Shown here piece after piece: positions 4,229-40,852 of a stretch of 40,852 nt of DNA. The notes under the pieces are model-generated. The model had not been told where the DNA came from and searched no databases. It saw only the letters and a list, made by a program, of their open reading frames with translations. This stretch comes from Chloromonas sp. AAM2 (Eukaryota; Chlorophyta; Chlorophyceae; Chlamydomonadales; Chlamydomonadaceae): the NCBI GenBank assembly GCA_004335635.1, contig QAXH01006253.1, positions 1-40,852 of the forward strand, given 5' to 3'. The position numbers were made by a program, and so were the translations under genes. Numbering within the stretch: the stretch's first letter is position 1; each line of letters opens with the position of its first letter.

Positions 4229-7200
4229 ATGTCCCGGACAAATGTACTGCTGGCCGGGCTTCTAGTTTTTGCCCTGGCCTCCAGCGTCACCGCGCAGAAC
4301 CCATACAACAAGCGCCCAGTACCAAACAGTAAGTGCAAACGCATCACTGCCATTCAAGACTGTTGTGAGGAAAATACGTCATTTGAGTCATGGCGCCCGT
4401 GGCTCAACCTTTTCCCACGTTGCTTCTCCTGCAGACTTCACTGGCTCGTGCTTGCAAGGCCACTATCTGATCAATCATCGGGTGGCCGCTGGCGCCGGTG
4501 TGGGAACATGTGGTGAATGCCCGCTGGGAACCTCTTCCATGGACGGCAAGCGATGCATTGAATGCGCAGCGGGCACCTATGCGAACGCCACCAAGAGCGC
4601 ATACTGTCACATTTGCCAGCCCGGCACGATCTCAACTCCTGGCTCTAGTGCTTGCACTGACTGTGGCCAGGGCACATACAACGGCAAGGCAGGCGGCACC
4701 GTCTGCCAGACATGCCCAGCAGGTATGCAAACCTGCATGCACCACGTTCAACTGTATGTTTTTGACACCATACTTGGGTGGTGCACATACCTGTGAAATA
4801 TCCGAAACAAGTCCAACTCAACCGTACAACCGGGAACATGCTCACACTGCACCTTGACTACCTTCAAATGCACTTCTGAATTCTTACATTGCAAGGGAAC
4901 CCGAACACTGTTCCAGCATGTGACCTTCACGCCCGCCACATCCACGCAGGGTACACTTCTTCCGCTGGCTCGCCCAACTGCACTGCCTGCGCTGCTGGTA
5001 CCATTGCTGCTAGTGCTGGTCTAGGCACTTGCACCAGCTGCCTAGCCAACGAGTTCGCACCATACGCTGGTGGAAGTGTGTGCAGGTATGCCACACTAAC
5101 ACTTCCTTTTTGCATCTCAACTCTGTGTCTTGACCATCCTTGGTAATTCTATCTGCTTACAACTGGCCTGCACACGCATAGACACATGCACATTGCAGGG
5201 CTTGACTGCCTGGTTCCCATCAGTTTGCCGCTGGTCTTTTCACACGAGCCATTGACACGACATTATCCTGATGTTGAATCCTCTCCTGTGCATCCTTCCA
5301 GTGTTGCCTGTCTGATGCTCAATTGGTGCTTGATTGGTGCTTGCAGAAAGTGCGACCTGGGCTACGTTGCTGCAGCTGGTTCAAGCGTGTGCACGGCTTG
5401 TGGCACGGGCAAGTTCCGCAACACTGCCGACACCGTATGCACGGACTGTGCTGCAGGATACTACGCCAGTGCATTAGGTAAGGACCGCCAGATAGAGGCT
5501 ACTACGCCAGTGCATTAGATAAGGACCGCCAGATAGAGGCCACTACACCAGTGCATCAGGTACGGACCACCAGATAGAGGCTACTACGCCAGCGCATTAG
5601 CCACCAGATGGAGTGAAAGAAGCTGTCCCAATCGCTTTGACAGGTTTCTAGCAGCAGATACCTAGTTACTGGTGAAGGTAACCAGCATGTGCGTGACATC
5701 TCAAGCGCGCCATCTGTCATGGCAGCTGTCAAACGGCTTTTGCAGAAGCCCACTCTAGTGTTGCTCACTCACGTGTCTAAAGCCCCCCAAGCAGATGTAG
5801 CAGAGAATAGACACGAGGAGAGTTTGCGACAATCCACTCATTGATGTTAGAGACGAGGTGTTGAATGCCTCACTGACTGATTTGAATCGTGGCTGTGTCA
5901 CTGTAGGCTCTGTCACGTGCAAGATCTGTCCAGCCGGCACGTTCAGCGCTGCCGGAGCCTCCGTGTGCATAGATTGCCCTGCTGGTCAGACCTCAGAACC
6001 CGGTGCTACAACCTGCACTGATTGCCCCCTGGGTGAGTGCCTTTGACTCCACCTGTTTATAGCAGGGAGGGCGTCAAAGGAGCCGGGGCTGCCCAATGTC
6101 AACTTCTTCTGCTCTTGCGGCTGCCCTTACAGCCTGTTGGGGTGCTTCTGGTGGCTAGCCTGCTAGTCTGTCGTATTGACCTGTTGCCTTTTTCCGTTCG
6201 TCAAGTCGAGGCGACCAGCTGACTGGCTAATTCGCGCCTTCTCGCTTTTAGTGTCCCCGTTCTTTTGTGCTTCTGGAGTACTCATTGGGTGTGTTTTTCC
6301 CCACGCTTGCAGGCACATACACCGATGTCGACGGCTTGCCAATCTGCTACCCGTGCCCCCAAGGCAGCTACCAAGACGTGGTCGGACAGACATCGTGCCT
6401 GCCTTGCGATCCTGGCAACTACCAGCTGTGGCCAACAATGGCTTTCCAGTCTTGGCCAACTATCTCTGCTTACGTCGCCTCTGCTGTGGGAGGTACTACC
6501 ATGATCAGCAGCGGAATCGCTGCCGCCACCGACGTTTACATGGCATCTTGCCAGAAGTGCCCCGCCGGCATGAACCAGCCCGCTGCTGGCCAGAGTGGCT
6601 GCCAGCCTTGCCTCGCCGGTACCATCAGCGCAGGTAAGGCTTTCAAACAACCGCATGATCTCATCAGCGCAGTTCAGTCACATCGCACTCCCATCACATA
6701 GCTGTAGATTTAGAATTCTGGTTACCGTTACCGGGGATATGGCCAGCAGCCTGCTTCAAAGATTTGTTGTCCGTTATCGTACCAATGCGCGAATGTACAA
6801 ATGCTGCTGTCACGGACAGCCGCCCATCAAGCGCCCACCGGCGAAATGATCAGGAGGCCTTTGCGTGAGCGTCGCCTGTGCACCACAACAACACGACCAG
6901 GCTGTATACCTAGCATTCAAATTACCGGGACGATGATCAGCTTCGTGCTCGAGCAAGCCTGTCAACTGAAGTCGTTCGCGTTGTTGTCCGTTTCCGCAGC
7001 GGACGCCGCCACAACCTGCACAGCTTGTCCCCTGGGCCAGACCAACATGGGCAACAGCAGTACGTGCACAGGCTGCAATGCCGGTTACTATGCCGACGCA
7101 CAAGCCTCCAACACCTGCCGCGCCTGCGCTGCTGGTTTGTACTCGAGCGCTGGTGCGACGAACTGCCAGCTGTGCGACGCCGGACAATACTCTGCAGCTG

Positions 7201-7833
7201 CTTCATCGTCTTGCACGGATTGCCCCAAGGGTTGGTTCACACGCAAGGCTGGCACTGCTCGCTGCCAGGAGGCCTCTGCCGGCTTCTTGGCTAATGCGGT
7301 GATCAAGGCTACCGGACAAACTGCCTGCCCTGCTGGTACAATTTCCTACAAAGGTAAGATCCCCAATGTCGTACTTGGTTTTCCAGCACGGTATGCACTC
7401 AACAACCTTGGCAGGCAACAGACCCAGTTTCTCGGTTCTTCGTCTAGCAGGTCTAGCAGCCGGCTGATCTTCGGGTACGGGCAGCCTGGCAAAACGAACA
7501 GAGATTACTTACCAGATTACGAATATATAGACCTGTACGTCAGCATCGCATCGCGTTGCAAATATTCCGTTTGTGTCGTTGCGCTGCCTGCCTGCAGCCT
7601 CTTCTGTGTCCGCTACTTTCACAACTGAGGAGTGCATTTCTTGCCCACTCAACGAGTTCAACAATCGCGTGGGCAGCCACAACTGCACGGCTTGTCCCGT
7701 TGGGACCCACACATGCACCTTTGGTGCCACTGCCTGTATCTCGGACAATATCCTCTGCAGCAACCCCCTGCCCCCAGCCCCACCGCCCCAGGCCACCTCA
7801 CCACCACCTGCCTTCAACCCGCCACCACCATAA
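4229..7833 (+). CDS. Secreted Cys-rich protein with tandem ephrin-receptor-like (GCC2/GCC3-type) modules and Pro-rich tail
   Basis: Eight exons join in frame: 4229-4328, 4435-4722, 4950-5085, 5347-5477, 5907-6032, 6313-6633, 7000-7353, 7598-7833 (563 aa). Residues 1-22 form a signal peptide (MSRTNVLLAGLLVFALASS, then VTA|Q), so the product enters the secretory pathway. The body is a train of 35-45-residue modules of the form C-x2-C-P/A-x-G-T/Y-x(10-14)-C-x2-C, typical of the ephrin-receptor-like/GCC2-GCC3 family. The last 25 residues are PPP-rich, like hydroxyproline-rich cell-wall proteins. No transmembrane or kinase segment follows, so a wall or matrix role is likely; the ligand is unknown. 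All introns are phase 1 except intron 3 (phase 2), and most interrupt the Gly after CPAG/CPLG. The start is chosen for the signal peptide and the good context (ACAATGTC). Confidence 0.85.
5459..5610. repeat. 41-bp tandem repeat made from the end of exon 4 and its splice donor
   Basis: Units of 41 bp with equivalent positions at 5462, 5503, 5544 and 5585 begin inside the last codons of exon 4 (TACGCCAGTGCATTAG) and include the donor. The first unit keeps GTAAGG at 5478. Unit 2 has ATAAGG (dead). Unit 3 has GTACGG at 5559-5564 (a possible cryptic donor). Unit 4 is truncated. Units 2-4 lie in intron 4. Confidence 0.9.
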
Positions 7834-10142
7834 ATTGGTTGTCCAGCCACACGAGTTGGGTGGCACTTGGACTGCAGCTTGTGGCATGCCGTGGCTTCTA
7901 GCGGGTGCCAGCGGGTTGCAAACTGAGGCCGTTGTGCAATGCTGCAGCGTGGGTGACGGTAATTTGTTTTCCTGACAAAATCTGTTATCATTGCCAATGT
8001 CGCACGGCAAGCCCACTTGAGTCGTGAAGCACCTTTCGTTGCTCTTGCACCTCAAAGGAAAACAGGCTGCAGAGGCAGGTATCGCAGCTGTCACGAATCT
8101 GTCGTTACTGACACGTGACTGTATGGTCATGCGTTTACGTGTGGTTTGGTTGAAGGAGGGGCTAAGTTCAGATTGCAAGTACCGTTGCTCTATGTTGGCA
8201 CGAACGCGCGCCAAGAAATGTGAGCAACAACACACCGCACTCTCAGCCTTACATTGCTTGTATCTATGCATGGGATACTGCATGCATCAGACGCTGTGCA
8301 GCATGCCTTGGCGGTTGCAACAAACCATGGCTATACCAGTCAACTTTGGATTTACCTGGTCGCCTATCTAGAAAATTGAGGTGTGCGTTGCCCTTATTGA
8401 ACCTTCCTCCCGACCTGGGGTAAGGTTTGCCATTTGGCTTCCAAGTATGGACACAGTGGCAGTTTCTGACTGTACTTGAAGCACGTGGTTTGCAAACCCT
8501 CGTCCTTCCTAATCAGTGTCGCAATTGGTTGTACAACATTTGGCAACAGCTGCCCCGCCTTGCTATTTCATACGTTCAAATCCACACCCTGGGAAAAAAA
8601 AGGCAGGGGCACACTGACATGCAAGGTTCACAACAGTGTTACGCACAGCTTGTCAACTGCGGTTGAAAACGGCTGCAGCACGTGTGTTGCTGTCTGGTTG
8701 ATGCATGTGAGTGCTGTTGGTCCCCCTGCCGGGTGTACGGATAACATGCCGCCATGTGGGTTACTGTTTTTAGACATGATGCCCAGTGTCATAGGCAATG
8801 GAAGGCTGCTGTCTCAGGAGCTGGAAGGCCTTGTAAGCTTGGTGTACCACAGTGCAGTGGATTCGGCTGGGAAGAGCCCAACTGCAAGTGCAGCCAGGCT
8901 GTGCAATCACAGCCTAAGCACCAAAGAGCAGCACCACCGTTGAATGGAGACTTTAAGAATTAAGATCCAACCACATGGGCATGACTGATATGTCAGTAGC
9001 AGAGAACATGGTGATGACGCACGCCTAGGGCACATGTCGTGTGAGGAGCCCACCTCATGAGTCCTGTCACTGGTATAGTGCCGCTTGATAGTAAAGCACA
9101 CGTGAGCTAGGCCGTCACCAGCGCCAGGCGCACGCTGTCAGTGCTGGTCGTTCCACATTCCTCCCCCCCAGGCTGCAGCTCACGGTGTGAACGTGCTGGG
9201 CCGTAGGAGTTGAGAAGATGTAAGATGGATAGTCAATGATGACTGCGGCGACATATGCGAGCCCGGTGGCGACCATTTAGGATCTTTACGTTACAATGAC
9301 CCACATCATGTGACACGTCCCTAAAGAGGAGCAGCTTGAGATCATTAATGATGATTCCGAGACTGGTGCTCAATCATTCCAAGACCATGCTCATTGGCGC
9401 CTGTTCCAAACCAGACAAAGCCCTGGTTCAAACAGCACGTAAAAATATGTACGGAAAGCAGCAGCAACAGATCTGATGTGCATGTATTCAAGAATCTCAG
9501 CCACAGTTGCATACCCAGGCCACAAGCAACAGTCTTCATTGCGAGCCACAAATCCATACGACGAATTTGTTGCAGCAACTCGCAGCAAAGTCGAGGCAAG
9601 TGCCGTCACATGACACGGAGCGGGATGGGCCCTGCCCAGACCTACCCTGTAGTCGTGATAATGCTCGTCCAGCCCCGGGAAAGGCAGGCTGACCAACAGA
9701 AAGCAGACAACAATCAATGCAGACCGGCAAGCCGGCAGCTGAGAAATCAGAAACTTGTGGTCTTCGCATTGGGGCTATGCCTTTGAGAACCGCAGACTTC
9801 TCAATACTAGATTCTCTACTCCCTTCGGCCCCACCACTGCCCATCATGGCAGCCCTGCAGCACCCCTTGAGCCCTTCAGCCCTTCAGCAGAGCCTTATAA
9901 GCGTGTAACCTGAACAGTGCGCATGTTGGCGGTGCTGCATGTGGGACCCCAGAGCACCCATGGACCCACAGCACTGTCATACCCTAGGTATCATTTGTGA
10001 CGGCAGTTCTGCTTATGGACGGACACTTCTAATGACTACAATTCTTGTAATGGGCAGACACCAGCAAACAAAGACACTCAAAACAGTGTTACAAGTTGCT
10101 GACTGAACTTTTTGCTGACTGGACACGATGCCCAAGTGCTGA

Positions 10143-11866: not shown

Positions 11867-14800
11867 ATGGTGAGTTTTCCTCCAGCAATCAGATCGACGC
11901 ACTCAACAGCTTCAAACCTTAACACATCGTGTTTTGCGATGGACGCAGGGGTGTGCCAGTTCTACCCCTGCGGATGAACAGCCTGCCCAGAGTGGGGCCC
12001 CGGCTGCAAAGTACGTAATCCCGCCCCATTTGCGCAGCCCACCCGGGTCCTTGAATGGGCTGGGTTCTGCCTTGGCAGGAACAGCAACAACCCAGGGTCC
12101 ACCATCAGCCCAAGGCGGCCCAGTCAGCCCCACCGCTGGTCTTGGCAAACAGGCATCTACTTCCGCACCTGGCCTTGTGCCTCCCAGCACCGACCCCCGC
12201 TTGTCGCAAGAAACTAAACGTAGTTCAGCGCAGTTTGTGAACAACCCACCGCAAACACCAGGGTCTTCTGAAAGCTCAGCTGTGAACCCCAGCCTCAAGT
12301 CACTGACTGTGCAAGAGGTGCACACAGTGCAGAGCACGCTCATGAAGGTATGTACCCTTGCTGCTATCTGCAGGCTTTAGGCAGGAGTATCTTTTGGTCT
12401 CGGCGCGCTGGCCAGCGCCACAACATTGCACCCTGCCGACATGCCTTGCACAGGTCAGCACGCTAATTCAGAAGTTTGCGGAAGGCAGGACCGAGCGCAC
12501 AACACCTATTCAGGCGCTGAGGCGCGCTCTGGACCTGGTTGTTGCGGACGCCCATGCCAACTACGCCAGGTACGAGCAGGCCAGATGATTGTGCCACACC
12601 CAACACCATGCAGCCTTGGCCCTCAACTGCTCATGCTGCTGCTGCTGCAGTGTACAAGTTGTGCACGAAACTCTGGACTCAGCCCTGCTAGTTGCTCTGG
12701 TCGGTGCACCAGACCAGTTCTTAGAAAGCAACCGGCTACAGCGGCTAGGGCAATCTGGGTATGCAGCTGAGCTCATGACCGCCTCTCAGACGGACTGCCT
12801 CACATGGAACCCGAGTGCGGGTGCACAGCTTCCCACGGACTGGCACCAGCTGGTTACAGGCGCAGGTACGGCATTCTACTCCATTTTGCATGCCTCGGTG
12901 CACATGCGAACCAGGTGAAGTCATGCCATGCGTTGGGTGCACATGATTGTGCCAACAGGAGGCAGCCAGAACAGCTGATTCAGTTCTTGGCGCCGCTAGA
13001 ACGGCAACAGCGGCAGTTTGGGCAACGTCACTGCTGTTGCTAGCGACGGTGCAGGGGCTGGCAAATGCAGCAGCGGCTGCAGGTATGCAGCAGCAATCCT
13101 GGTGCAAGTGCAGCTACTACCACCAACAGCAGGGGTAGAAGCGGCAGGCACGACAGCAGCAGGATTGGCAGTAGGGGCAGGGGCAATGCCAGCAGGGGTA
13201 GCGAGGCAAGTAGCACTGGCAGCAAGAGGAGCAGTACAATGGCTACATACAGCGCGCCAACAGCAAGGGCAGCATGTGGGTTCAGCAGCAGCGGATGCTG
13301 CAGCGGCAATCCTTTGGGATTAGAAGGCAGCTTGCAGCGACTGGCAGCAGTGGCAGCTGGTCAACACTTCTGCAGGAGGTGCCCATGCCTGTACCCATCT
13401 CTGTGCACATTTCATCATGTGCCCATGTCATGCATGCTGTTCCTATGCCCGTTCCCATGTCTGTTTCACGTCATCCTGTGCCCATGGCTGTTCTCATGTC
13501 ATCATGTGCCCATGTCTTGTGTGGACTTGCTTGTGCATTCATACATGCATGCATGCATGCAACTGGTGTGCATCTCATGTCACATGTGTGTCTGCCTGTG
13601 CAGCCGTCCGCCACCTGTCGGCTGTGCCCATTCGGATCGCTGAGCGGATGGTCGGCATTCTTACTCTTGGCTTTACTGAGGATGGGGAACAGCATGCCGA
13701 CCATGCATTGTGAGTTTGAGAGCAGCTCGCATGGGGTCGTTTACCTCAGATGGAATCACATGTAGCTTCTATGGGCTTCCACGTGTAGCCACACGGGTGT
13801 TGTCAGGTAGGGTGTTCGCATGTGGTTACTTAGCTGACATGGGATTGTGGGCATCGCCAGATGGCAGGCTGCACACTCGGCAGCATGGCTGCTCTGCACA
13901 CTCAGTTGTGGGTGTGATAGAACCTCACATGAAGTTGCAGGAGGCACATGCGGGCAGCACACAAGAGGCAGCCGGCTGGTAGCGCAGCAGCATGCACAGC
14001 AGCATGCGTTACATGGATACATGAGGGCAGCTTGCATGGGGTTACATGGATACATGAGCGCACTTTGCATGGGGTTACATGGGGTACATGTGGGCAGCTT
14101 ACGTGGGTTAGAGTGCATGGCAGCATGATAGACTGCATGCGCAGCGACGTGGTTCAGCATGCGCTACAGGCCACTTCGCATGGGTATGCGCACCATGCAC
14201 TGGTAAAGACCATGTCATGGACACAGCAACATGGCGTTTTCTGCTCTGTGCAAGAATGGTTGGGTGAGCTGCTCGGCCAGGTAGTTGCATAGGCGCATGC
14301 GTGGGGTGGCTTTCCATGCACCCTGCAGTGCTGCTGCTGATGGATGCAGTGTCTAATGATGGATGTGTTCTGCATAGCGAGTATGGATGTGTCTGCACTG
14401 CACGTACTCAGCATCATGTTTCATCAAACCATGCAGGTGGACTACTTACATGCAGCTAGTAGCAGCATCACTATCTTCGGTGGTCAAGGACACCTCCATA
14501 CCCAAGTACCTGACATTGGTCAAAGAGGTGTGTAAGGGTGCATTGCCGTACTGCACCAGGTTGCAAATGGTTTCTCGCAATTTAGTTATGCTGGCAATTT
14601 GATGTCCGAAACGGCAGTATCTGGTTTTAATACTACGTGAAGTGCCAGGAGCAGGTGGCATGTCCCATGATAGCAGCTTCTTGGCTGAAAGGCCTGGGCT
14701 CGGCTGAAAAGGTTTGGTTGAGCCTGCTGGTTTTGGGTCATCAACATGCTTCAGGCTTACTCTGTACACCTTATTCTCTCACATGATTCACCATGCATGA

Positions 14801-15615
14801 TTGCAGACGGCACAGACCTCCTGATCCACATGAGAGACGCGCACATGACGTGCCTTTTCAATTCCTGTTGCATGCTTCACGTGTTTTCGATTCTTGTCAC
14901 TTGCGTCACGTCCAGTTCCTGTCGTATGCATCACCTGCCTTCTTAGTTCCTGTTACATGATGCACGTGCTTGCCCAGGACCTACCTTGCAAATGGCGTTG
15001 AAGTTCTGATCTGACATGCTAGAGACTCCATGCTTCACAGCTCTTCCAGTTCCTGTCGCATGCTTCATGCATGCGCGCCCCAGCCGCTGTCCTGCCGGTT
15101 TGGCTCGCTTGTTCTTGCCTTGACTTGCCTTGCCTTGCCTTGTGCCCTGCCTTGACAAGCCTGTGTTTGTCGGTTTTCCCCCAGGTGTACCTTGCAAAGG
15201 ACGTTGAAGTTCTAATTCACATGCTAGTGACGCACATGCGTGGTGTGCTAGGCCACAGCAACAACCACCACAACTGGTACAGGGTGGCGCTGACAGGCAG
15301 CAGCAACATGGCAGCAACCATTTTTGACGACCTGACTCAGGTTAGAGGGGTGCATTTGGTTCTGCATTGGGAGTGTTTTTCCAAGCCATTAATTAAGATG
15401 CAGCAATCAGAAGCTAGTAGGTTGAAGAACATGTTTGGGTGCAAGACAGGAGGTGCAGTTTTCATCAACTGTTTTCATCACAAGGGGGTTGTGAAAGCGG
15501 TTCCAACCGCGGTTCACTAGAGCACTAAGACAGGCCAAGACGGCATCCATTCTTGCCTGATTCATGGCTCGTTTCTGGTGTCTGGTCATGGTGCATGTGC
15601 CTGGTCTCTGCTGTA

Positions 15616-15654
<39 letters not shown>

Positions 15655-18600
15655 TCTCTCTCACTCTCTCACACTGCACTGTGGAGCAAATCGTCATCTC
15701 TTGGATTGCTGCATGTGGGCTGCATGTGGGCTGCTGGAATCAATCTGGTGTCATGTCCACAGAGGATTTGACATGGAACAATGATGCCCAGCTTTGCCCC
15801 TGGCGTTCATCTGCATTAACAGCCACACAGTTTCATCCACACACTCGTCCATACTTGCAACAAATTTGTACTATGCTTCCTGACTGCAGGTCCCTGCCAG
15901 CCTGATGCAGCGCGGCCTGAGCAGTCACACAGGCTCATCTAGCCATCGTCTGTTGAAAGAGGTTCAAGCATCGGGCGGTGTGATGAGGACTGTGGTGGCC
16001 ATGAAGAGCACAGTGATGAAAATCAGCGTACACAACAGGCAGCAGGTGGGTGGTTGAGTCATTCTTAGTCGGTTGGTTGCAAGGAATGCCAGTCAAGCAA
16101 GTCACAGAACATGCTGCTGGGTATGGCGTAAGGCTAGTACATGGTTACTGAGATCAGAGGGATGGTGCTTGGGCCATGGGGGTACCATGGGGCTTGGGCA
16201 GTCAGGCATGCAGACCAGGCAGGCTATGGTTTGTCTTGCTCCAAGGCAGTGATAGTGTGTCAGCTGCAGCACCAATCAAGCGACTGAAAAAGAGACTCCC
16301 CGGCAGTAGTGGCCCTGCAGCAGCGTAGGCTCACCTGCCGTCGTTTGCAAGCGTCTGCGAATGCCATGTGATGATGATGAGCAGCAGCCAGACAGGTCAA
16401 GCATAATACTTGGCATGGTGTGATGGGCAGAAGTAGGCTGCTTCTGGGCAATTTGGTTGTTCCAAATCAGCTTGCATGCAGTTGGGCCTAATGATGATGA
16501 CGATGATAATTCAAGTAGCCGAATGAGCTTGTTAGAAATAGAGTTATATCCCCCTCACCACAGGTGATGATTCCTGACGTCCAGAAGCTGATCAACCAGT
16601 CAGGCAACGTTTCCGTTGACATCTTCAACACTCGCCTGATCAAGCCGCCCACCTCGGTGCTGGTGTTTCCGCTCAAGGTCAAACACCACATCTTTGGGGT
16701 CGTCTTCTGTATGTCCAGGTGAGCACCTGCCAACCTGGCCTGCTCACTGCCCATTGCTTACTGCTAAAGACGTTCACTGCCTAGCATGGAAGCTGCTCCC
16801 TGCTAAGCATTGTTCTTTGTTCCTGCATGTCTAGGCAAGCACTGACTTCACACCTTACTCTTACACTACGATCTGAATTCAGTTGATGAAGTAGCACATG
16901 TGTTTCAGCTTTGTTTTCACACACCCTTTCGTCTGTTGGGTGCCACTTCTCCAATCACCCACTCACAGTAGTCACCCCCAACCACAATGCAATGAGTGGG
17001 AAGCGTAGTGGTTAATAAAGCAGGAATGAGAAGCGTGGGCATAATGAATGAGAAGCCACAAACCGACGGCCCACCCTCGCTGGCATGCAATGAATGAGGA
17101 GCGTGGGCGTAATGAGGGGTGCAACAAGGAGAAGGAACCATTGGCCCACACTTGTTTGCACGCACAGTGTTGCCACTGACTTCTCGGACGTGTCGCCCCG
17201 CCTGCGGGAGCTGTGCGAGGTCATCTCTCCCCATCTGCTCACACTGCTCAACACCATCCTGGCAGTCGAGTACTCAGTAGTGCAGGTGCGTTTGTTTAGG
17301 GTTTGAAGCTTGGGTTTAAGGACTGGGTTAGGGTTTGGGCGTGTAAATATTTGCTCACAATGCTCAACACCACCCTGGCAGCTGAGTATTCAATAGTGCA
17401 GGTGCGTCTATCAAGTTTCTGCCAGTGTTCTCTGTTTCCCTTAGTTTATCAGAGTATGAAATGTGCACGATGGAAAACGATGAACAATAGCGGTAGTGCA
17501 GGTGAGACGTGTCTCGTCAACAGAAGGCGTGGCATGTTGCTCGCTGTCAGACCAGCAAGGCAAGCAAACAGTCTGGTGGCTGCCCAGGGTGGGTTAGGGA
17601 GTTTAGGCTGTAGCCCAGGTGGGTTAGGGGGTTTAAACCTTACCCCCCTAAGTAAAGTAGGTAAGGCTTACTTGTAAATCTTCCCTTGGTGGCTACAGTA
17701 ACGGTCATGATAGTGATGATGATTCTCATTTGTGTTGCTTTGTCGCAGAACGCCTTACCCACGACTCCTGAGGGTGGCTCGATGAGCGGCATCATGATCT
17801 CCCAGTCGTCGCGCAACGCCAGCTTCAGCGGCAGAAGCATCGGTGGCAACAACGACACAGCAGCCAGCTTTGCGTCCAATGACAGCTTTGTGTTTACCCA
17901 GGTGCATAACTCTTTGTCTTTGTTATGAATCATGACCTTCAGTCTGGTGCTGAACACGAAACCGCATCTACAGAATTTTGGTGGAGCGACAAGAATGAGC
18001 TCAAACCCGAATGCTAAGATGCCGGTGGTTGGGTGATTTTCCAAACGAGAGTGCTGAAAGGAGTTTGCTAGCGTCTGACGTGAATGCATTGTGGGTAAAG
18101 CATCATCACGTGGGTCACATGTGGTGATGCAGAGTTGAAAGTTGCATGTGGGCCACATTGTCGCATCAAGTCGCACGTGATGACATCAATGTATAAAGTA
18201 GAAAAGTACAAAAATGCTCCTCATCGGTGTACCTACTGAACCCAATCAGGTTGCTGTGTATATCTTGCATGCATGGTTTGGGTCGCATGCGGTGCTGGTG
18301 GGTGGTGGGTTGCATGTGGGTCACATCATTGTGTTCGGTCACACGTGGTGATGAAGGGCTGCTTTTTCTTCATCCATGCAATTGCAGAGTCGTAGCTCCA
18401 CGGGCGCGCTGGTGACAGGCCTGACAGAGAAACTGAACCAGAAGCGCATCAAGAGCAGCATGGACTTCGCAGGGGTGAGCACAGCCAGTCAGGGTTGGTA
18501 GGCGTTTACATGGGGTTGCTGTTGGTTGTGTACCGCTTTGCCAAGCCGTCAATTGGATGTGGGAAGGTCTACTGGGCCGGGGTCACTGGGTATCTTATGT

Positions 18601-21600
18601 GTCGGGCGGGGGCAGCTGGTGAGCAGACACCCCCTTCTTGGATACCCAGCCTACTTAGATGCCCCCCTTCTTGGAGGACATTCCCTTTTTAGATGACTCC
18701 CCCTTCCTAGATGGCAAGCCTTTGACTGGGATTGCATCAGAACGATGCTCGGCTGTCGCCTCGTATTCATTTGTACTGCTTTGCAGACCCACGCCCTGAG
18801 TGAAATCCATTGCCTGTGTCTTTACTCGTAACCCAACGTTCATACTTTTACTTGTCTTGTTGCTCTGCATCACGTTTCACATAAACACACCAAACGTTTC
18901 ATGACACCAAAGGTCTCTGCCGTGTTTCCCTGCAGACCCACGCTCTGGGCGACCTCCAGGTCCAGGCGCTGCTGGGCGAGGGCGGGTTCGCCAAGGTATT
19001 CAGAGGCCTGTGGAGGGGACTGGTGGTTGGCATCAAGGTGAGAAACAGGGATCTGGCTTTGGAAACAAGCGGCTTTACCGACTGTGGGGGAGTTTGGCAA
19101 GGTTTGGAGGCCTGCGGAGGTGACTGGTGGTTGGCAACGTTTGGGTAAGAATCGCAGCACCGCAACAGTCAATTCAGGGATGCAAGCTGCCGACGCCTGA
19201 GAGGACGAGTCGAGCGGATGATGCACTGTGCTGGGCAAACGTGTGGGTGCACTGCAACAGTTGACGCTGCAGTGGACAGGCCTGGCCACAAGTCTGTGAT
19301 GTGGCCAATCAACGCCCACACAACCACCGACTAGCAACACTCGTACGTGCTGTTGCGTTGCTCAGGTTGTGTGTGATGACGGCAAAAATGAGAAGATGGT
19401 CATGAAAAACGCACACGAGATCGCCATTCTAGGGTGAGTGGAGTGGAGTGGGTGTGACTGGTGTGACCAATATCAGGTTCGTGTGAGTTGTGACAGTGCC
19501 AGCAGCCAGCCTTGCACCCTGGTTACTTGATTGACCAGCTATGATTGAGTGCCTGGTTACTTGATTGACCAGCTATGATTGAGTACCTGGTTACTTGATT
19601 GATCAGCTATGATTGAGTACCTGGTTACTTGATTGATCAGCTATGATTGAGTACCTGGTTACTTGATTGACCATCTATGGTTGAGTAACTGGTTGGTTGG
19701 TTGCAGGTCGCTTTCCCATCCCAACATCGTCCAGGCATACACGTGCTTGACGGACGTGGCAGTGCGAGACCTCCTCTCCTCGTCCTTCCGAGGCGCGCCC
19801 CCAGGCGTGCTCTTCTCGCCTGCCTACAAGTACCTGGCAGGGATGGAGGAAAGGCCGTGCCACATTGAGGTCATTGAGTACTGCGATTTGGGCAACCTCA
19901 GCACAGCGCTCAAGTACGCAGTTTTCCAGGTAAACGCCGTTTTCACCGGTGTGGCTGAGAGCAGCCTGCGTGGACTGGCACGAAAACGGCACTGAAACCG
20001 CGGTTTCAGGACTAGTAGTTCCTTTCGTTTGTCCATGCTAAGTGGGGATGGGTGTTTGGCCCATTCCTTTATGCATGTGTGCGATAATTGCTAGAAACAC
20101 ACCTTGATGACGCGGTTGTGATGTGCGGTTACAATTGCACCAACTTATTTGCATCCAAACCGCATCACAAGCAGGTAGTCAAGCACCCATGTGCCTTGGC
20201 CTGTACACATTCATGCGCTCAGCCATTCATTCGACCACTTGATGATTTCCAGATGAATTTTTCATCTTGTACAGTCCGCAGGCGCCCCATCCCAACAAGG
20301 TGTTGGCAGTGCTGATTGTGGCTGCTGAATTAATCAGCATCCTCCATTCATTCATTCATTCATTCTTAGTCTTTACTCTTTTGTTTACTTGACTCATGTT
20401 TTACAGATGGATTCATGCGCTTTGTTCCTTTCTCAGGTGGCCCATCCCGACAAGGTGTTGACGGCTGCGGTGACTCTATCCAGCCGGGACGGGGGCTCGG
20501 CAGACTCCCCGGCAGGAGACGGGACCGTGCCGGCATCCAACGCACTGCTGGCCGAGGTGGGTTTTCGTCAGTGTGTCTGTGTGTGAGAGAGTGAGAGCGC
20601 GTCGTTGCCGTCAGTTTGGCTGTGGAAGTTGCAGAACAACCATTCCAGGCGCTGAACAGCCCCCTAAGCACAGCATGAGCATGACGCCCTCAAAAAAATT
20701 CGTTTCTGTGGTCGTGTTTCTGGCCAAAGGTGGAGCCAAGGGCAGTTTGTATGCTTGTGCTTCTTGTCTGTTTGAGATGCTCAACAAACTTTTTTACCCG
20801 CAATGCCCGAAATCCCCCACAATGGAATTGCAACGCAAAGGTGTGCCGGAATGTGGTTGCTATCACCTTGCACTCTCAGGCTACGGCTACACCAGTCGTT
20901 TGCTCGTTCCATCGGTCACTCGTGTTGCATGTTCAAAGTTCTCTTTTCTCTCTTTTGCACCTGCCTTCTCCACAGTTGTCTGCATGGTGATGGTCTTTGC
21001 AACACCTGCGTTTGTGTGCACATTTCAGACTTTGCCCGCTCAATCAGTAACGTTGTGTTCTATGTGCTCTGCATGAATGTTTGTGTTGTTTGTTTGTGCG
21101 TCTGCAGGTTCGCAGCCAGGCGGGACGTGTTCAGTTGCGCACCCTCCTGCTGACCCTCATCGAGATAGCCTCGGCCATGGGATACCTGCACCGCATGGGT
21201 GAGTGCGGCCATGGGATACCTGCACCGCATGGGTGAGTGTGGCCATGGGATACCTGCATCGCATGGGCGAGTGCGGCCATGGGATACCTGCACTGCATGG
21301 GTGAGTGCGGCCATGGGATACCTGCACCGCATGAGGGAGTGCGGCCATGGGACACCTGCACCGCATGGGCGAGTGCGGCCATGGGATATCTGCACCGCAT
21401 GGGCGATGGGATACCTGCACCGCATGAGGGAGTGCGGCCATGGGATATCTGCACCGCATGGGCGAATGCGGCCATGGGATGCCTGCACCGCATGAGGGAG
21501 TGCGGCCATGGGATATCTGCGCCGCATGAGGGAATGCGGCCATGGGATACCTGCACCGCATGAGGGAGTGCGGCCATGGGATACCTGCACCGCATGGGCG

Positions 21601-24600
21601 AGTTCGGCCATGGGATATCTGCACCGCATGGGCGATGGGATACCTGCACCGCATGAGGGAGTGCGGCCATGGGATATCTGCACCGCATGGGCGATGGGAT
21701 ACCTGCATCGCATGAGGGAGTGCGGCCATGGGATATCTGCACCGCATGGGCGAATGCGGCCATGGGATACCTGCACCGCATGGGCGAGTGCGGCCATGGG
21801 ATATCTGCACCGCATGAGCGAGTGCGGCCATGGGATATCTGCACCGCATGAGGGAGTGCGGCCATGGGATATCTGCACCGCATGAGGGAGTGAGGCCATG
21901 GGATATCTGCACCGCATGAGGGAGTGCGGCCATGGGATACCTGCACCGCATGAGGGAGTGCGGCCATGGGATACCTGCACCGCATGAGGGATTGCATCGT
22001 TCAAGACACTACCCGAAATGCGCCCAGGCGTCAACACAGCCTTTCACCACTTGCATGTGCCGTGCGGGTATGTCAGGGACCGTGGCATCCACAACTCAAG
22101 GCTATGTGGGGTATGAGCGAGAGAAAGCCATGTGTTGAAGGGTGTGCTGCTATGCCTTGCATGCATGCCATGCTTTGCATGTGTGCAGGCCATGGGTGTG
22201 TGCATGCCACGTCATGAAGGCATGCATGCTATGTGTTGCGTGCTTGCCATGCTTTACCATGTGTGCATGCCATGGCTGAGTGCATGTCACGTCTTGCATG
22301 CCATATCTTGCACGCGTGCCATGTTTTGCCATGTGTGCTTGTTTCCTTCTGGTGCATGCAGGTGTTGTCCACTGCGACATCAAACCAGCCAACGTCCTCC
22401 TTCGCAGCTCAAGTACCGATACACGTGGTTTCACAGCTAAGGTTAGCAACGCACATGCACTGCAGTTTAGCCGTTTAAAGCCTGCTGCGTGCATGACAGC
22501 GCAACTGTCTGCACCTTCACATGCTTGCAACTCATCGCTACATGCATGCATGCTTGTTGCATCAACACTCAGTGCTCAGCTGTTGACATGATCGCAACAG
22601 GCTATGCGAATGTGTTGCAAGGAAAAGACCTGTACTATCAGTTGTGCTGGAGTGGCCGATCGAGAAGTCAAAAACTGAAGGTTATCCGTGATGCTAACTT
22701 CCATTCGCGATGATGACTCACCCACGTGCCTCTCACTCTCTCTCTCTCTCTCAGGTCAGTGACTTTGGTCTCTCTCGCGTTGAGGACGACGACATGCACG
22801 CTTCCTTCCCCTTCAACAGCTGCGGCACTGCGGCGTATGTGGCGCCTGAAGCGCTCATCTGCAACAAGAAGGTCAACAGCAGCGTGGATGTGTACGCCTT
22901 TGGCATACTGATGTGGGAGGTGAGAGGCGGGGCAGGGGTACAGACCTCGTTGCTTTGGAGCTTGGTGCATCTGGGATTGCAACACACTGGACGAGCAGTC
23001 TGAAGGCATGGCAACACATGCGAAGTCGCCCTAATGTTGCTAAGAGAACGATAGCCGGTGCTGCAGCCCCTCTGTCCCTGCAATCTCTTGCCACCAAGTT
23101 TTTCTACCTATCCGCTGTGGTAGTTGATACTAGTGGTCGCGCATGTTATGGTGGTAGATTAATGCATGCATACGTTATCTTGTTCGTACAGATGTTCACT
23201 GGCGCTCGTCCATACGGCAACATGAAGCAGCAGGCGCTGGTTGAGGAGGTGGTGATGCGTGGCCTCAGGCCGCGCTTTCCCTCGCACACGCCGCCTGCGT
23301 ACGTGCTGCTGGCCCAAGCCTGCTGGTCGGGCTCCGCACAGTCAAGGCCTACGTTCGATGAGGTAAGCAGTACTACTATGATTGTTAGTATTAACAGTAT
23401 TTCTATTACTATTTTGGTATCATTGTTTTTGACGAGGTTAGTTATGGGTTACGGCTTAGCCAGGGGTTGGGCTTGTGGGTTGGGGTTTACAGTTAGCTGC
23501 GTGCGTGCTGCTAGCCCAGACGTGCTTGTCAGGCTCAGAACAGTCAAGGCCTGCCTTTGATGAGGTGAGGTGTGGCCATTCTCTTTGACTAATTTGTCAA
23601 GAATTGCGTCATGAAAAGTCATGGAGGTGCGCCTGCCAGGACAGGGGAGTCTGGGAGAAAAAACAATGCCTTAGCTGCAGCACTGCAGGCCCACCTGCTG
23701 CCTTGGTATTTTGTCTCTATAATCCCAGTGGTACTGGGTAAGTTCTGCAAAAATGTGCGCGTCCGACTCCACTTTGTGCGGGCCCTGACCACTCTGACTA
23801 AGCCCTCCCTCATTGCACCACAGTGACACATGTGCACGCACACCCTCATACTCACACACACACATACGTGCTCTCCATGTGTTGCAGGCCCTGACGACCC
23901 TCAACACCATGCTGAGCGCGCTTGAGAACCAGGAGTTGGCCTCGACAGCCTCAGCCTCATTCTCATCCAACGCAGATGTGGTGGAGTACATGGCAGCAGC
24001 TACGCCCACACTGCAAGGAAACGGCCTGCAAACGGCCCATCAACAGGTGTGTCATCTCAGTTGTCTTCAGTTCTGTGCACGTTTTAGTTTTCAGGTGCAG
24101 TGCTTTTGTGTGCAGCATTGTGTGTGCACATCGGTCCGTGTGCGTTGGGCGTCATTCTCAGTGTCTTGCGTTGATGTGAATGCGTCATCGTATGCAGGTT
24201 ACCTTTGCCAACAGCCCGGCGGACCACAGGCCAGCAAGCCCCGCAATTGTCCAGGACAAGTCACTGACCGGCCGCAGCAGCAACGGCGCAGGTATTCTTC
24301 GAGGCATGACCGTTGGTGACGCCTCCATTGCCCGCAGCAGCGGTGGCGTGAGCCACGTGGTTGGCGGGAACGGCCCCGCAATGACGTCGGTTTTTGCCGC
24401 GCTCAATACGGGTGTGGGCAGCGGTGGGAGCGGGCGGCAACGGGCGCTCTCACGAAATGCAAGCATGACAGGCGATAACGGCGGCGCAAGCGGCATAGCC
24501 AGCAAGCACGCTGCATTTCCTGCTCAACCGTCTGGCCTATCTGCGATGACTTCCCCTTACTTCTCGCCATCAGCAGCTGAGGCCTTGCCAATGACGGGAT

Positions 24601-24623: not shown

Positions 24624-25811
24624 GGCGCCTTGTGTGATACCTTCCTGCAGCGACATTACGTCGTGCAGCACGGGTGCTGAACGTCATGACAGCATAGGTG
24701 CTATACGCCATGACAGCATGGGTGCCCCAAATGATTCTTGAACAAGGTCTGGGCGCCTTGGCTCTCTGGTAGACGGCGTTGCAGCAAGGCAGTTGGCAGC
24801 GGAACACTCAACCCCTGCTGGACGCACAGCTGCAGCATTGGTTCTTGGCTCTTCCGCATGCTTGCACAAGGGCCTTGCGTCATGCTGGGACAGGGGCTGA
24901 CCTATGAATGGCTTGGCTCCCTCAGCCTTTTCGTACAGAACATGGGAGGCGACATGCTGCCTTTGCTGCATAGAACACGGAAGGTACCTGGTGCATGAGC
25001 AATAACACGTGCTAGCAACGGCTTGGTGCAGGGGCTTGGTAAGCATGGTCAGTGACCATGTAGGCAATAACATGCAGGCGACACCAGCTTGTAGTATGGA
25101 TGCACATGGAAGTGACTGATGTAGAAAACATTTGGCTTTTGCATGGCATGCCTAGTGCTCATGCCATACGGATTCATCATTGGTGTCATAGCAGGGATGG
25201 CCCATGGGCCCATGGACTGCTCATGTGGACATGCACATGTGAGGCGCGCATGCATTGAGCAGTGCCGGCACAGCATGGGGTCTCATGCATACATTGAAGT
25301 GCTTTGTCGTGGGCATGGCCCATGCCTACTTCTTGACATTGACGTGCTCAATTCGCATGAACTCCACGGTTCGAGTTTGACATGCTGCACATTCTTGGTT
25401 TGGCGCTGGGTGCGTGCTCTTCCTGCTCTGGAACAAGCACAGTGCAAGAGCAGGCAAAGGGCGCATTTGCTGTCTGAGTGGTCATGACTGGGCAGGCCAG
25501 GCCAGGCTGGAAACTCAAAGAGGCAAACGAACAGCAAGACACATCCCATCAGAATAGCACAAACACAGGAAGTTGTTCGAACGAGGGGAAACACAGTGAA
25601 TGTGTTCATCATACCACACTGCACTATCAGTGGCTAAGAGCCGGGATTTGGGGAGCGTGCAGCCAGACTTTGGAAGAATGCTGTCGGGACGAGGTCGGTC
25701 AGAGGCCGTGCAAGGGCTTTGCAAATGCTGGGTGTAGCAGGGATATGGGTTGCGTGTGTATGGGTGTGAGTAAGTGGCTGCCGAGCCACACTGTTTAGCT
25801 GCATAAGCAGA

Positions 25812-26003
25812 TGCCGGATTAGGCATCCTTTTGCAAGTCTGCCTTTCCTGTGCATGTCCGTTTCTCTGGGGCATGGAAAAATTAAGTAACTGCATGTTTG
25901 AACCAGCATATGCCGGATTAGGCATCCTTGTGCGGGTCTGCTTTTCCTGTGCATGTCCGTTTCTGGGCGTGGGAAAAGTGAGCAACTGCATGTTTGGAAC
26001 CAC
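25812..26003. repeat. 99-bp tandem duplication, two copies
   Basis: TGCCGGATTAGGCATCCTT begins at 25812 and again at 25911, and most of the two units match (CCTGTGCATGTCCGTTTCT; AACTGCATGTTTG). Ninety-nine is a multiple of three, so a chance minus-strand frame reads through with a 33-residue repeat. Confidence 0.9.
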
Positions 26004-37094: not shown

Positions 37095-40000
37095 TCACAA
37101 CCGGTTAGCCCCTAGGAGACTGCCGCCTGTTGCTGCCATGGACACTGCTGATGATCGCGAGTCGGGCTGGGGCAGCTTGGCTATCTGTGCCGGGGAATTG
37201 AAGCCGGGCGGCAGCAACTGGGAAAAGTACGGGTACAGATCCCTGCGGACAGGGCAAGGGAACATGGACCAGGAGAAATATGTACATGGATTACATCAGG
37301 GGGTTCCACATGCATCGAGCGCAAACTCAAGTGAGCCAGGATGGGTGATTTGATTGGGCACAGTATAAGGGCATTTATAAGGCGATTGTTGTGCCTATCC
37401 TGACAGAGCATCACAGGTAGTAAGCAGCTGGGGCAGGTAAGGATGCAGGTCAGTGGTGCTTTGTTTTGTGCTTTGTTTTTTCCCCGCCAGTGGTGCTTTG
37501 TTGGCTGTTGCCCGTTTTCTGCCTGTTTCCTGCTGCCATTCTTTGGCCAGTTGTGCTTCTCGTTTCTTGCAAGTGATATAAAGTTTGTCTTCTGAGCCGA
37601 CATTGACCAGGATGGTTGATTTCAGGAACTAAAACCGTACGTCACCGTACAAACACGACCAGCTCGAACAACGACTGAAACAAGTAGTACACGAGCTGGA
37701 AAGACTGATGAATCACAAGCCACGCGAATGCCAAGCTGCGCTCGGTGCACCACGGGTCCCTGGGTGAAGTTTTCCGCGCTCACCTGTAAACTGCTTTAAT
37801 CGTGACTTCGGCCACGTTGGTGACGGTGCAGATGGCTTGCATGGAAATCGGGTCCTTCGAATTCACATCCCGGTCCTGCAATCGCACATCACAGACATCC
37901 GCACGGAGCATGGTTAGGAAGAATAGTGCGGTTTGGTCGACGCGATCTCCATGTGTGCGCGGGAGGCCATGGAATGACGATGAGAGGCGGAGAACTCCTT
38001 GCCTTTTGACCTGCTTGGCTATGGCCTGGCCTTTCATGTCATCTCCTTCATAGCGCACATCACATGGCTCATCACATGCCCCATCGCATGGTCCATCGCA
38101 TGGCCCATCGCATGGCCCATCACGTTTCACGTCACATGGCCCATCGCATGGCCCATCACATGGCTCATCACATGGCCCATCGCATGGCCCATCGCATGGG
38201 CTCATCGCATGGCTCATCACGTGGCTCATCACGTGGCCCATCGCATGGCCCATCGCATGGCCCATCGCATGGCCCATCGCATGGGCTCATCGCATGGCTC
38301 ATCGCATGGCTCATCACGTGGCTCATCACATGGCTCATCACGTTTCACATCACGTGGCTCATCACATGGCTCATCACGTTTCACATCACATGGCTGATCA
38401 CATGGCTCATCACGTTGCACATCACATGGCTTATCGCATGGCTCATCGCATGGCCCATCGCATGGCCCATCGCATGGCTGATCACATGGCTGATCACATG
38501 GCTGATCACATGGTTTGCATGGGAACGGTCCTGCATGAGCGGGTGGTCCCCCACAGTGACTTGTCGGTGACTTGTGGCTGGTGTGGCTTACGAGCCTGGG
38601 CTTCCAAGGAGAGCAGACTGATAGCAACAGTTCGCAGCACGAGACAGCAGTGGGCGTGCACGATGGGTGATGAGTTTCTTGTAATATATGTAATAAATAG
38701 TATACATATAAATGATATACATAATATAATATGATATGATATTAAATATAGTATATGACTCACCTTTATAAGTGTGAGGATGTAGAGGATGGCTGCGGCC
38801 ACTGACAACGGGGAGCGCGAGTCCCAAGCGCGCAGCGCGGTGTCAACACTCTCGTCCTGAAAAGTGTGTGATCAAGTGTGGGAACGGATGAGTGGTGACG
38901 TGTCACAAGATGTGAAGATGTGGGAACGGATGAGTGGCGACGTGTCACAAGAAGTGAAGATGTGGGAACGGATGAGTGGCGACATGTCACAAGGTGTGAA
39001 GATGTGGGAACGGATGAGTGGTGACGTGTCACAAGGTGTGAAGATGTGGGAACGGATGAGTGGTGACATGTCACAAGGTGTGAAGATGTGGGAACGGATG
39101 CGTGGTGCCATGTCACAAGGTGTGAAGATGTGGGAACGGATGAGTGGTGACGTGTCACAAGATGTGAAGATGTGGGAACGGATGAATGGTGACGTGTCAC
39201 AAGGTGTGAAGATGTGGGAACGGATGAGTGGTGACATGTCACAAGGTGTGACGATGTGGGAAACTGACGTGTACAAAAAGGATTCTGCCCTGCCCTGTCA
39301 ATTCATGCCCTGCACAGACACTCGCCTGTGTCTGGCATGCATGTCTTTACTTGTGCAGGCTTTGCTTACCGTCTGCCGCCCCTGCCTTGACCTTGTGGCT
39401 TTGCCTGCCCTTGCGCCATGGCTGTTCAAGTCTCACCTTTGGTTTCGCAGCCAGAGCCATGGCCTGACACGCCTTGAACACATCATGGCCCAGCTTCAAA
39501 TCTGAACGCACGGGAGCAAGGAAGACGAAAACATGACCGGCATGGTACGGGACAGAATGAGCACATCAATAAGCGCGACAAAACCAGGGTTCTCTTCTCC
39601 AGACAGGTCCTTGCCAATCCAGCATGAACTTGGACAGAGAACACATGCATTTGCCTAGGCTGGAAAGAGGAGGCATGATGAGGATGGGCAGAAATGAAGA
39701 AAATGCATCTGCTCTTGCCATGCGTCCTTGATGCATTTAACGAGCCATGCTTTTTTGACCCTAATCCCGACCTTTCCAAAGCCAGTTGTCCCCGCGGTGC
39801 CTTTCCTGACATCACCAGCTGCAAAGCCCCAAGGTCTTAAACATCGCCATGCTTTCAAAATGGCAATCACCTGTTACAAATCTCATCATGTCCGGTGGGT
39901 GCTACAGGTGCCATGTACGCCTGCTGGGCCCCTTCCCTGCCCATGTCTTTTCCGTTACCTTTACCGTTTCGAAACCGTTCTGTCCGTTTCTGTTTGTCTG

Positions 40001-40852
40001 TTCGCACCTGTGATGAATCGCCTCATGTAGTCGGCCGGGTGCTGTGCCACTGGCGCCATGTACGCCTGCTGCACGCCGTCCCTGCCCTTGCTTTTGTCCT
40101 TCTGTATGGCTAGCACCTCCTTAAAACAAGCGCTGATGTCCTTCTTGCGGACCTGAGGACGAAGATTACACAGCTGATATGATTGACTTGCACGCCGCAT
40201 TCAGATGGTATGTTGAGAGATGATGTCCTTCATGCAAAACTGAGGACCAAGAGCATTACCAGGGCCAGACTCAATATCTGCCTGCATCATTTCTTCTTCC
40301 TTGCTCCAGGTGGGCCAGGGCGGTGCCCATCAGGGCTCATGTAAAAAACAAAGTTTGTCCAGAAAAGTTTGTCTGAACCAGTTGGCCCAGAACTGCAGGC
40401 GCTGCCTGCGAAGCGCCCCTTGCAGCAAAGAGCGCTGCCTACGAACCGCCCCTTGCAGCATAGAGCAATGAGGAATCGCATGCGACCGTTGGTAGGGCAT
40501 GCAACAGCGGCCCCTGCTCTCCTGGTGACCAGTCTGAGCCTTTAATTGCCTCCTGCCTCCTGCTCTCCATTTGCCCTCGATCGTTCCAACCGTCTGCCAT
40601 GGGGACCAGGCTGTAAGGAACGCCTAGTAACGCTGATAGCAACAGGCTGAGGAACTTACAAAGTGAACATGGCCTGAATAACGGCCCTGCACCGTACCTA
40701 GCCGGCCCCACTCACCTCTGGAGGCATGACGGCTGTGATTCCCTTGCACGACTCAGTCATCAAACGCACAAACTCTCTAGATAACCAGAAATCAAATCAA
40801 ACGATCGCTCACCTCTGGAGGCATGACGGCTGTGATTCCCTTGCACGACTCA
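37095..40852 (-). CDS. TFIIB: Transcription initiation factor IIB (TFIIB family), N terminus outside window
   Basis: Minus-strand exons 40776-40716, 40152-40008, 39501-39437, 38856-38764, 37875-37784 and 37242-37095 join in frame, giving about 200 residues and a TGA at 37097-37095. The order matches TFIIB: end of the first cyclin repeat (EFVRLMTESCKGITAVMPPE, VRKKDISACFKEV, DYMRRF), then the second (LKLGHDVFKACQAMAL, SRSPLSVAAAILYILTLIK, VNSKDPISMQAICTVTNVAE, VTIKAVYRDLYPYFSQLLPP) and a short polar tail. TFIIB recruits RNA polymerase II to TBP-bound promoters in the nucleus. A roughly 20-residue basic insertion (QKDKSKGRDGVQQAYMAPVA) and a Lys-poor link after the first repeat are atypical. 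The zinc ribbon and the start of cyclin repeat 1 lie beyond 40852. A BRF-type paralogue is less likely, given the short C terminus. Confidence 0.8.
38054..38515. repeat. 12-bp tandem array, about 38 units, in a TFIIB intron
   Basis: The unit is CCCATCGCATGG with CTCATCACATGG and CATCACGTTTCA variants. It fills half of the intron between 38763 and 37876. Twelve is a multiple of three and the unit lacks stops, so several frames on both strands stay open (MAHR-, HGSS- or CDGP-type repeats). These are artefacts of the array. Confidence 0.95.
38676..38757. other. AT-rich tract next to a TFIIB splice donor
   Basis: About 80 bases made almost only of A and T (repeated ATAT, TATA and GATAT) sit just inside the intron after the donor at 38763, between the exon and the 12-bp array. 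The rest of the window is near 50% GC. Confidence 0.8.
38866..39262. repeat. 42-bp minisatellite, about 9 units, in a TFIIB intron
   Basis: The unit is ATGAGTGGTGACGTGTCACA followed by AG(A/G)TGTGAAGATGTGGGAAC and GG. It starts about 10 bases from the acceptor of the exon at 38856. The 42-bp length keeps frames open on both strands (WERMSGDVSQGVKM on the plus strand). It contains the palindrome TGACGTGTCA. Confidence 0.95.
39895..39955. repeat. Decayed copy of the middle of a TFIIB exon, in the following intron
   Basis: GCCATGTACGCCTGCTGGGC, then CCCTTCCCTGCCCATG, aligns with 40055-40098 (GCCATGTACGCCTGCTGCAC, then GCCGTCCCTGCCCTTG) inside the exon 40152-40008. It is downstream in the direction of the gene. 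Confidence 0.75.
40222..40256. repeat. Decayed upstream copy of the start of a TFIIB exon
   Basis: GATGTCCTTCATGCAAAACT, then GAGGACCAAGA, aligns with GATGTCCTTCTTGCGGACCT, then GAGGACGAAGA, at the exon start and acceptor (40136-40166). On the gene strand this is acceptor plus first codons, duplicated about 87 bp upstream. Confidence 0.75.
40297..40340 (+). repeat. Possible fragment of the dispersed short element (copy g)
   Basis: CTTGCTCCAGGTGGGCCAGG, then GCGGTGCCCATCAGG, resembles copy b over about 30 bases (CTTGCTCAGGTTGGCCAGGA). Weak. Confidence 0.3.
40711..40852. repeat. 97-bp direct duplication of an exon end and donor in TFIIB, identical over 45 bases
   Basis: Bases 40711-40755 and 40808-40852 are identical; the second copy runs off the window. 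On the gene strand each is the last codons (TESCKGITAVMPPE) plus GTGAG. Either donor yields the same peptide. The left copy has an acceptor-like ATCTAG at 40782-40777; whether that copy is an exon or an intronic duplicate depends on sequence beyond 40852. Confidence 0.9.

Follow-up and report, generated by a model that had tools for sequence, protein, structure and literature searches.

Intronic copies of exon edges in a kinase gene of the green alga Chloromonas sp. AAM2 as probable remains of local tandem duplications

Duplication of DNA across an intron-exon boundary has been described before, and several systems offer points of comparison for the introns considered here. In the potato RdRp gene, according to PMC4974935, a tandem duplication across such a boundary produced a new intron, and intron gain by tandem duplication is also covered in a review (PMC3443670). 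Fill-in at staggered breaks yields small tandem duplications, as reported in PMC8355091 for induced breaks in mouse cells, and proximal duplications made during repair may include splice sites, one inverted exon being described among them (Pace et al. 2009; PMC2671141). We analysed contig QAXH01006253.1 of the green alga Chloromonas sp. AAM2, which in its entirety (40,852 bases) forms the window of this study and belongs to an assembly of 74.4 Mb in 2324 contigs. Introns of a kinase gene in this window, and of a Cys-rich and a TFIIB-like gene on the same contig, carry copies of the edges of the adjacent exons.

The locus resembles each of these systems in part. As in potato RdRp, the event would be a tandem duplication that crosses a boundary and carries a splice site; unlike the potato case, which gave a new spliced intron and an added exon, no added protein segment is seen here and the copy lies within an old intron. 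A duplicated splice-site motif and direct repeats are shared with intron gain by tandem duplication, whereas the route given in the review starts from an exon-internal AGGT and here an exon end is duplicated together with the start of an existing intron, no new intron being seen. Small tandem copies are likewise the product described in PMC8355091, and breaks with overhangs would, by analogy, be a natural source of the units found here. The duplications of Pace et al. are also short, close, non-adjacent copies able to include splice sites; they are free in side and orientation, whereas only right-sided direct copies reach the alignment score of 18 used below. Boundary-crossing tandem duplication is therefore an already known event, and in the present locus its outcome looks both silent and repeated along one gene.

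The kinase gene (12079-24623, plus strand) has at least 21 exons, numbered here as in the initial annotation, reads in frame and matches Pfam PK_Tyr_Ser-Thr (E 3e-46); the homologs nearest to it come from green algae of the Chlamydomonadales, with protein identities of 74% in Haematococcus lacustris and 69% in Volvox reticuliferus. The Cys-rich gene (4229-7833, plus strand, eight exons in frame) encodes Ephrin_rec_like domains, and the TFIIB-like gene (minus strand, about 37.8-40.8 kb) is recognised by a weak Pfam TFIIB match (E 0.0015) that falls under its cut-off. The last or first 80 bases of each exon, with 8 intron bases, were compared with the adjacent intron by Smith-Waterman alignment, and dinucleotide shuffles and reversed introns served as controls. 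The kinase and Cys-rich genes together provide 54 edges (27 donors and 27 acceptors), and the counts refer to these, the TFIIB-like exon and a repeat at the contig end being left out. Eight of the 54, namely five donors and three acceptors, have a copy in the adjacent intron scoring at least 18, where chance predicts 0.00 from shuffles and 0 from reversed introns. One TFIIB-like exon adds a donor-edge and an acceptor-edge copy, whose scores were reached in 0 of 300 shuffles. The intronic copies of exon edges are real.

The kinase and Cys-rich features lie on the plus strand; the exons were placed by in-frame gene models and, for kinase exons 8, 11, 14, 18 and 21, by homolog alignment as well. 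Downstream of exon 11 (17168..17285), the last 53 exon bases and the GTGCGT that follows recur at 17349..17407 with 52 of 59 positions identical (shift 116, score 45), and downstream of exon 21 (23192..23362) the last 68 exon bases and GTGAG recur at 23497..23569 with 60 of 73 identical (shift 202, score 47). Both edges of exon 14 (18936..19037) are copied: the upstream copy at 18782..18809 includes the CAG and matches at 23 of 28 positions (shift 149, score 18), and the downstream copy of the 3' part, at 19086..19136 (score 31), stops at position -5 and has no GT in register. A gapped copy of the 5' edge of exon 8 (15185..15340) lies upstream at 14973..15033 (shift 207, score 34). The 5' edge of exon 17 (20437..20556) recurs upstream at 20267..20305 as 15 intron and 24 exon bases (shift 155, score 21), with weak colinear homology further upstream.

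Two of the 3' edges are repeated in arrays. Exon 4 of the Cys-rich gene (5347..5477) is the source of an intronic array with a 41-bp period (5496..5600, score 27), each unit combining 23 bp of exon and 18 bp of intron; unit 2 reads AT in place of GT and unit 3 retains GTACGG. The last 26-27 bases of kinase exon 18 (21108..21198) are part of the unit of a 34-bp array that extends through 21199..21995 of the intron (score 33; about 25 units including the exon one); of 22 array segments, 3 still have GGTGAG, and the first of these is the real donor site. On the minus strand, the TFIIB-like exon at 40008..40152 has a gapped downstream copy of its 3' edge that runs through the CAG/GTG junction (39868..39951; score 35, or 38 with a longer query) and an upstream copy of its 5' edge with 13 intron and 24 exon bases (40216..40252; score 20, or 23 with more upstream sequence). 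All edges listed in the initial annotation, the 5' edges of exons 14 and 17 included, were thus recovered at scores of at least 18, with two exceptions: the contig-end repeat, treated below, and exon 22, whose 5'-edge match scores 13 (P 0.01), has lost the AG and was excluded from the count. The further claim that each copy includes its GT or AG does not hold, given the 3' copy of exon 14, the AT of the second Cys-rich unit and the few array segments with GGTGAG.

For comparison, a sample of 269 kb was taken from the genome in pieces of 10 kb (sets of 20, 4 and 2) and one of 9 kb, and genes were predicted there with a small hidden Markov model (HMM) gene finder that had learned from the window genes as well as from its own output; counts rest on 239 kb of readable sequence, the window included. 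Predicted exons with a coding score of 5 or less or shorter than 40 bp were left out, as were edges whose target was shorter than 40 bp or contained N, and the exon-internal and within-exon controls used the sample minus loci L028-L030. At scores of at least 18, the 8 of 54 copies on the right side contrast with 0 of 54 on the wrong side (Fisher P 0.006), 0 of 108 in inverted orientation (P 1e-4) and 0 of 844 when an edge is compared with the other introns of its gene, those not adjacent to it (P 1e-10). At 16 or more, the corresponding figures in the window are 2 of 54 (wrong side), 0 of 108 (inverted) and 1 of 844 (non-adjacent), and outside it 1 of 272 (wrong side) and 1 of 544 (inverted).

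The edge copies are adjacent and direct and lie on the side that tandem duplication dictates, and the lack of a fixed side or orientation expected of repair-mediated proximal duplication is not seen. The two arrays, with units of 41 and 34 bp, are still plainly tandem. The rule that 3'-edge copies lie downstream and 5'-edge copies upstream is borne out, although it follows from the geometry: a tandem unit crossing a boundary leaves the frame-keeping site beside the exon and the other copy in the intron. One-sidedness is a consequence of this geometry and of reading-frame selection, and adds no information. Exon-internal stretches gave no intronic match at 16 or more, whether among the 21 from the window or the 215 from outside (3 of 215 at 15 or more), because a tandem unit has to cross an edge to get into the intron; a duplication internal to the exon lands within the exon and therefore alters the protein. 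Copying of exon-internal segments into introns had been proposed as the observation that would speak against the pattern; such copies are indeed missing at 16 or more, but tandem geometry forbids them, so that the comparison does not discriminate, and it was dropped as a deciding test.

The copied donors of exons 11 and 21 match the real ones in strength (7.4 vs 7.4 and 7.1 vs 6.6), whereas three copied acceptors score below theirs (2.9 vs 7.1 for exon 8, and 4.9 vs 8.3 and 5.8 vs 7.6). Stop codons would be met on use of each of the five tested kinase copies, together with a frameshift in four; the exon 8 copy keeps the frame and meets two stops. Indels are present in three copies (exon 8 5', exon 14 3' and TFIIB 3'), and the two gap-free copies, those of exons 11 and 21, are not clearly different from neutral expectation (P at least 0.24 with 30% of the changes silent in the exon). 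From their sequence the copies look noncoding. The idea that they are coding or paralogous exons was not supported by this neutral test or by a genome search with 23295-23569, the only stretch searched genome-wide for similar copies, whose single match was itself. Dispersed similar copies, as expected of introner-like mobile introns, were not found in that search or, at scores of at least 18, among the 844 comparisons with non-adjacent introns, and exon 21 (starting at 23192) had no match in a phage collection. The copied splice sites would be leftover decoys that remained by chance and whose use is predicted to do harm. In the open-access literature searched, we found no description of exon-edge copies acting as decoys in algal introns.

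Twenty kinase junctions were aligned with nine algal homologs. At the copy-bearing junctions, the homologs continue without an added copy in eight of the nine where alignable, the exception being a protein discussed below (P0009); one homolog (P0002) has four fewer residues at the 3' edge of exon 14, and no judgement was possible for the junctions of exon 17 and the final junction, where the alignment is too divergent or has gaps. Because the homologs are colinear at the judgeable junctions, the exon-side splice sites are very likely those in use. The proposed role of tandem duplication as a route to new introns finds no counterpart in these data: no new intron was seen, no segment is added relative to the homologs other than P0009, and stops would follow in all five kinase copies tested.

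We consider it probable that the edge copies remain from ordinary local tandem duplications, with lengths of tens to about 200 bp, that crossed an exon boundary by chance, and we assign this explanation a probability of about 0.77. By analogy with PMC8355091, a break with staggered ends would be filled in and rejoined, leaving the edge twice in tandem. The site that keeps the frame would stay in use, that is, the first donor at a 3' edge and the last acceptor at a 5' edge, as the colinear homologs support. The second copy would turn into intron, and the intron would become longer by one unit. The exon-side half would remain recognisable through purifying selection on one of its copies, and the intron-side half would decay on both. 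Tandem duplication as the cause, already put forward in the initial annotation, fits the local, direct, right-sided copies, as does the proposed outcome of lengthened introns that hold spare splice sites, two of the copied donors being as strong as the real ones.

Homology on the intron side, which the mechanism predicts, could be demonstrated for some copies, and its decay would have to be assumed for the others. A unit with both exon and intron sequence is seen in the two arrays, at sample locus L003 (position 4634; colinear, score 23, 0 of 500 shuffles) and, more weakly, at the 5' edges of exon 17 (P 0.028) and of the TFIIB-like exon (P 0.04); at the 3' edge of exon 21 (P 0.04) the homology is less closely colinear, with an offset of about 23 bases. 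Intron-side homology was not found at the 3' copy of exon 11, at either copy of exon 14 or at the TFIIB 3' copy; it was not seen past +6 for exon 11 3', for exon 14 3', or beyond -5 for exon 14 5'. We simulated decay, letting both intron copies and one exon copy change freely while the other exon copy was conserved, under two indel settings that give the ranges of P. The TFIIB 3' copy (P 0.29-0.64) and L003 (P 0.53-0.98) are compatible with decay, and the values are 0.03-0.31 for exon 8 5' and 0.08-0.30 for TFIIB 5'.

Several results weigh against this explanation. In the same simulation, exon 11 3' has less intron-side homology than decay and small indels predict (P 0.000-0.007), both copies of exon 14 are poorly explained by decay (3' P 0.000-0.057, 5' P 0.000-0.003), exon 17 5' keeps less than expected (P 0.000-0.020), and exon 21 3' gives P 0.003-0.09. 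The homology frequently ends within 8 bases of the splice site, which is short for uniform breakpoints. These misfits could be due to large intron indels, to filler at the repair joint or to capture of proximal DNA, and the data do not choose among the three. In the neutral test, placing all changes on the copy brings the lowest P to 0.067 for exon 11 and 0.051 for exon 21, which is borderline. Repeats within exons scoring at least 16 occur in 0 of 25 exon windows in the window and in 6 of 150 outside, where the gene models rest on HMM prediction and not on RNA. The distribution of duplications over edges and introns is also uneven. When arrays are counted once and units are placed at random for the expectation (low-complexity repeats and three exon-exon rows being set aside), the two window genes contain eight edge events (seven kinase, one Cys-rich) and seven intron events; this share of 8/15 at edges exceeds the expected fraction of 0.28 (P 0.035). 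In 102 intron spans outside the window, 0 of 14 events are at edges against an expected 0.35 (P 0.002), an under-representation, and the two shares differ (P 0.002).

The edge share in the window is inflated because the window was selected after the pattern had been noticed there. Pooled over the 239 kb, 8 of 29 events are at edges against 9.1 expected, so that the preference for exon edges implied by the initial annotation disappears: exon edges do not appear to be targeted overall, and the cluster of edge copies in the kinase gene remains partly unexplained. In alignment windows of identical geometry, too, edges show no more copies than intron interiors. At 16 or more, counting alignment windows and hence arrays repeatedly, copies are found for 8 of 54 edges and 41 of 190 intron interiors inside the window (P 0.34), and for 3 of 272 edges and 42 of 864 intron interiors outside it, fewer at edges (P 0.004). 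An apparent fourfold richness of the window introns in duplications came from this repeated counting; by events, the densities are 0.62 per kb in the window and 0.42 outside. Nor do the data agree with an ongoing general process, since outside the window no event lies at an edge, only 3 of 272 predicted edges reach 16, one of these (L010) being off any edge, and 0 of 272 reach 20. Edge-like gapped matches outside the window were seen at L003 (score 19) and L018 (score 18), both at HMM exons with modest coding scores (10 and 11). Over 125 pair-strand cases, an annotation-free search for strong splice sites shared within homologies gave too small a number to draw on, with 7 donors and 11 acceptors.

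Other origins of the copies were weighed against tandem duplication. In repair-mediated capture, an intron break would be closed by copying DNA from nearby; the copied piece may carry splice sites and is not necessarily tandem. The non-array copies do lie about 50-150 bp from their source with a spacer that is not visibly duplicated, intron-side homology is missing at three copies, and PMC2671141 describes intron splice sites duplicated in this way; capture can, however, insert in either orientation and is not expected to respect one side, and the absence of inverted (0/108), wrong-sided (0/54) and non-adjacent (0/844) copies at 18 or more, together with the lack of exon-internal stretches in introns at 16 or more (0/21 and 0/215), makes it rather unlikely. 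A process directed by splice sites, copying exon ends and their splice site with breakpoints at the junction, would account for the copies of exons 11 and 21 that end at +6 and +5, and for the three copies where intron-side homology is missing. A repeat at sample locus L011 (4826-4863 and 5312-5349) ends in the same manner: an apparent intron 3' end, 36 bp with the AG/GT junction, is copied 486 bp upstream with 36 of 38 positions identical, and the homology stops 2 bases beyond the AG, as a mirror image of the exon-edge copies; it lies outside any predicted gene and enters no count. Other breakpoints are at -5, +18 or -13, or the homology runs on through the intron (L003), and edge events show no pooled excess and are missing outside the window, so that we regard a splice-directed process as very unlikely.

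That selection maintains the copies as functional splice sites, whether alternative ones or decoys, is hardly credible: the strong copied donors of exons 11 and 21 would suit such a role, of which poison-exon regulation may be one form, but all five tested copies meet stops on use, the three copied acceptors are weaker than the real ones, the two gap-free copies show no clear constraint beyond neutral and the array units have mostly lost their GT. Assembly artefacts, finally, are an almost negligible explanation. The assembly is fragmented (2324 contigs) and an exact 45-mer repeat reaches the last base of the contig, yet collapse or stutter errors would not produce the divergence of about 7-25% from the source, or the indels, seen in the non-array copies; the two arrays, whose copies are closer, are less protected by this divergence argument. 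The repeat in question (minus strand, 40711..40852, with copies at 40711-40755 and 40808-40852, the second being the final 45 contig bases) might be another edge copy. We suspect it to be an assembly artefact, possibly an assembly-graph overlap, and left it uncounted; no third occurrence was found by exact-match search of the readable part of the genome.

The homolog set as noted above contains one exception to the lack of added copies. In P0009 (EukProt source, 61% identity), residues 110-195 hold three copies of the start of the homolog of exon 8 (15185-15340), the very exon whose 5' edge is copied in the window intron; the repeated stretch comprises the first 16-27 residues of that exon's homolog. 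Among the three best self-repeats per protein in the 22 best homologs scanned, a repeat of this segment was absent from the others. The gene model of P0009 may have mistaken intronic copies for exon, or the 5' edge of exon 8 may be prone to duplication, which a single case does not prove. That duplication breakpoints are anchored at splice junctions, some process copying exon ends no further than the last few donor-motif or acceptor-motif bases and doing so repeatedly at the same kinase edges in different algae, seems to us improbable. A different, short near-tandem repeat of 17 residues occurs at residues 239-278 of P0012.

Further repeats were observed in the window. Local duplications of the same kind as the edge copies, intronic or intergenic, are found at 18111-18351, 22113-22269 and 25806-25964, and arrays of 12 bp (CATCACATGGCT) and 42 bp lie near the TFIIB-like exons at 38058-38513 and 38877-39262. 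The spacers ahead of the exon 11 and exon 21 copies (17292-17348 and about 23430-23496) resemble degenerate TTTAGGG repeats by eye; despite this telomere-like look, the TTAGGG counts in the sample are unremarkable.

Edge copies and their one-sidedness are predicted by neutral duplication together with frame selection, and therefore do not by themselves constitute evidence for a splice-linked mechanism. What they indicate is that introns can lengthen and gain full-strength decoy splice sites with the protein unchanged, because duplications that cross a boundary can be silent and exon-internal ones alter the protein. Should edge copies turn out to cluster generally as in the kinase gene, or to recur generally at one edge as in the other alga, splice-anchored duplication would become testable.

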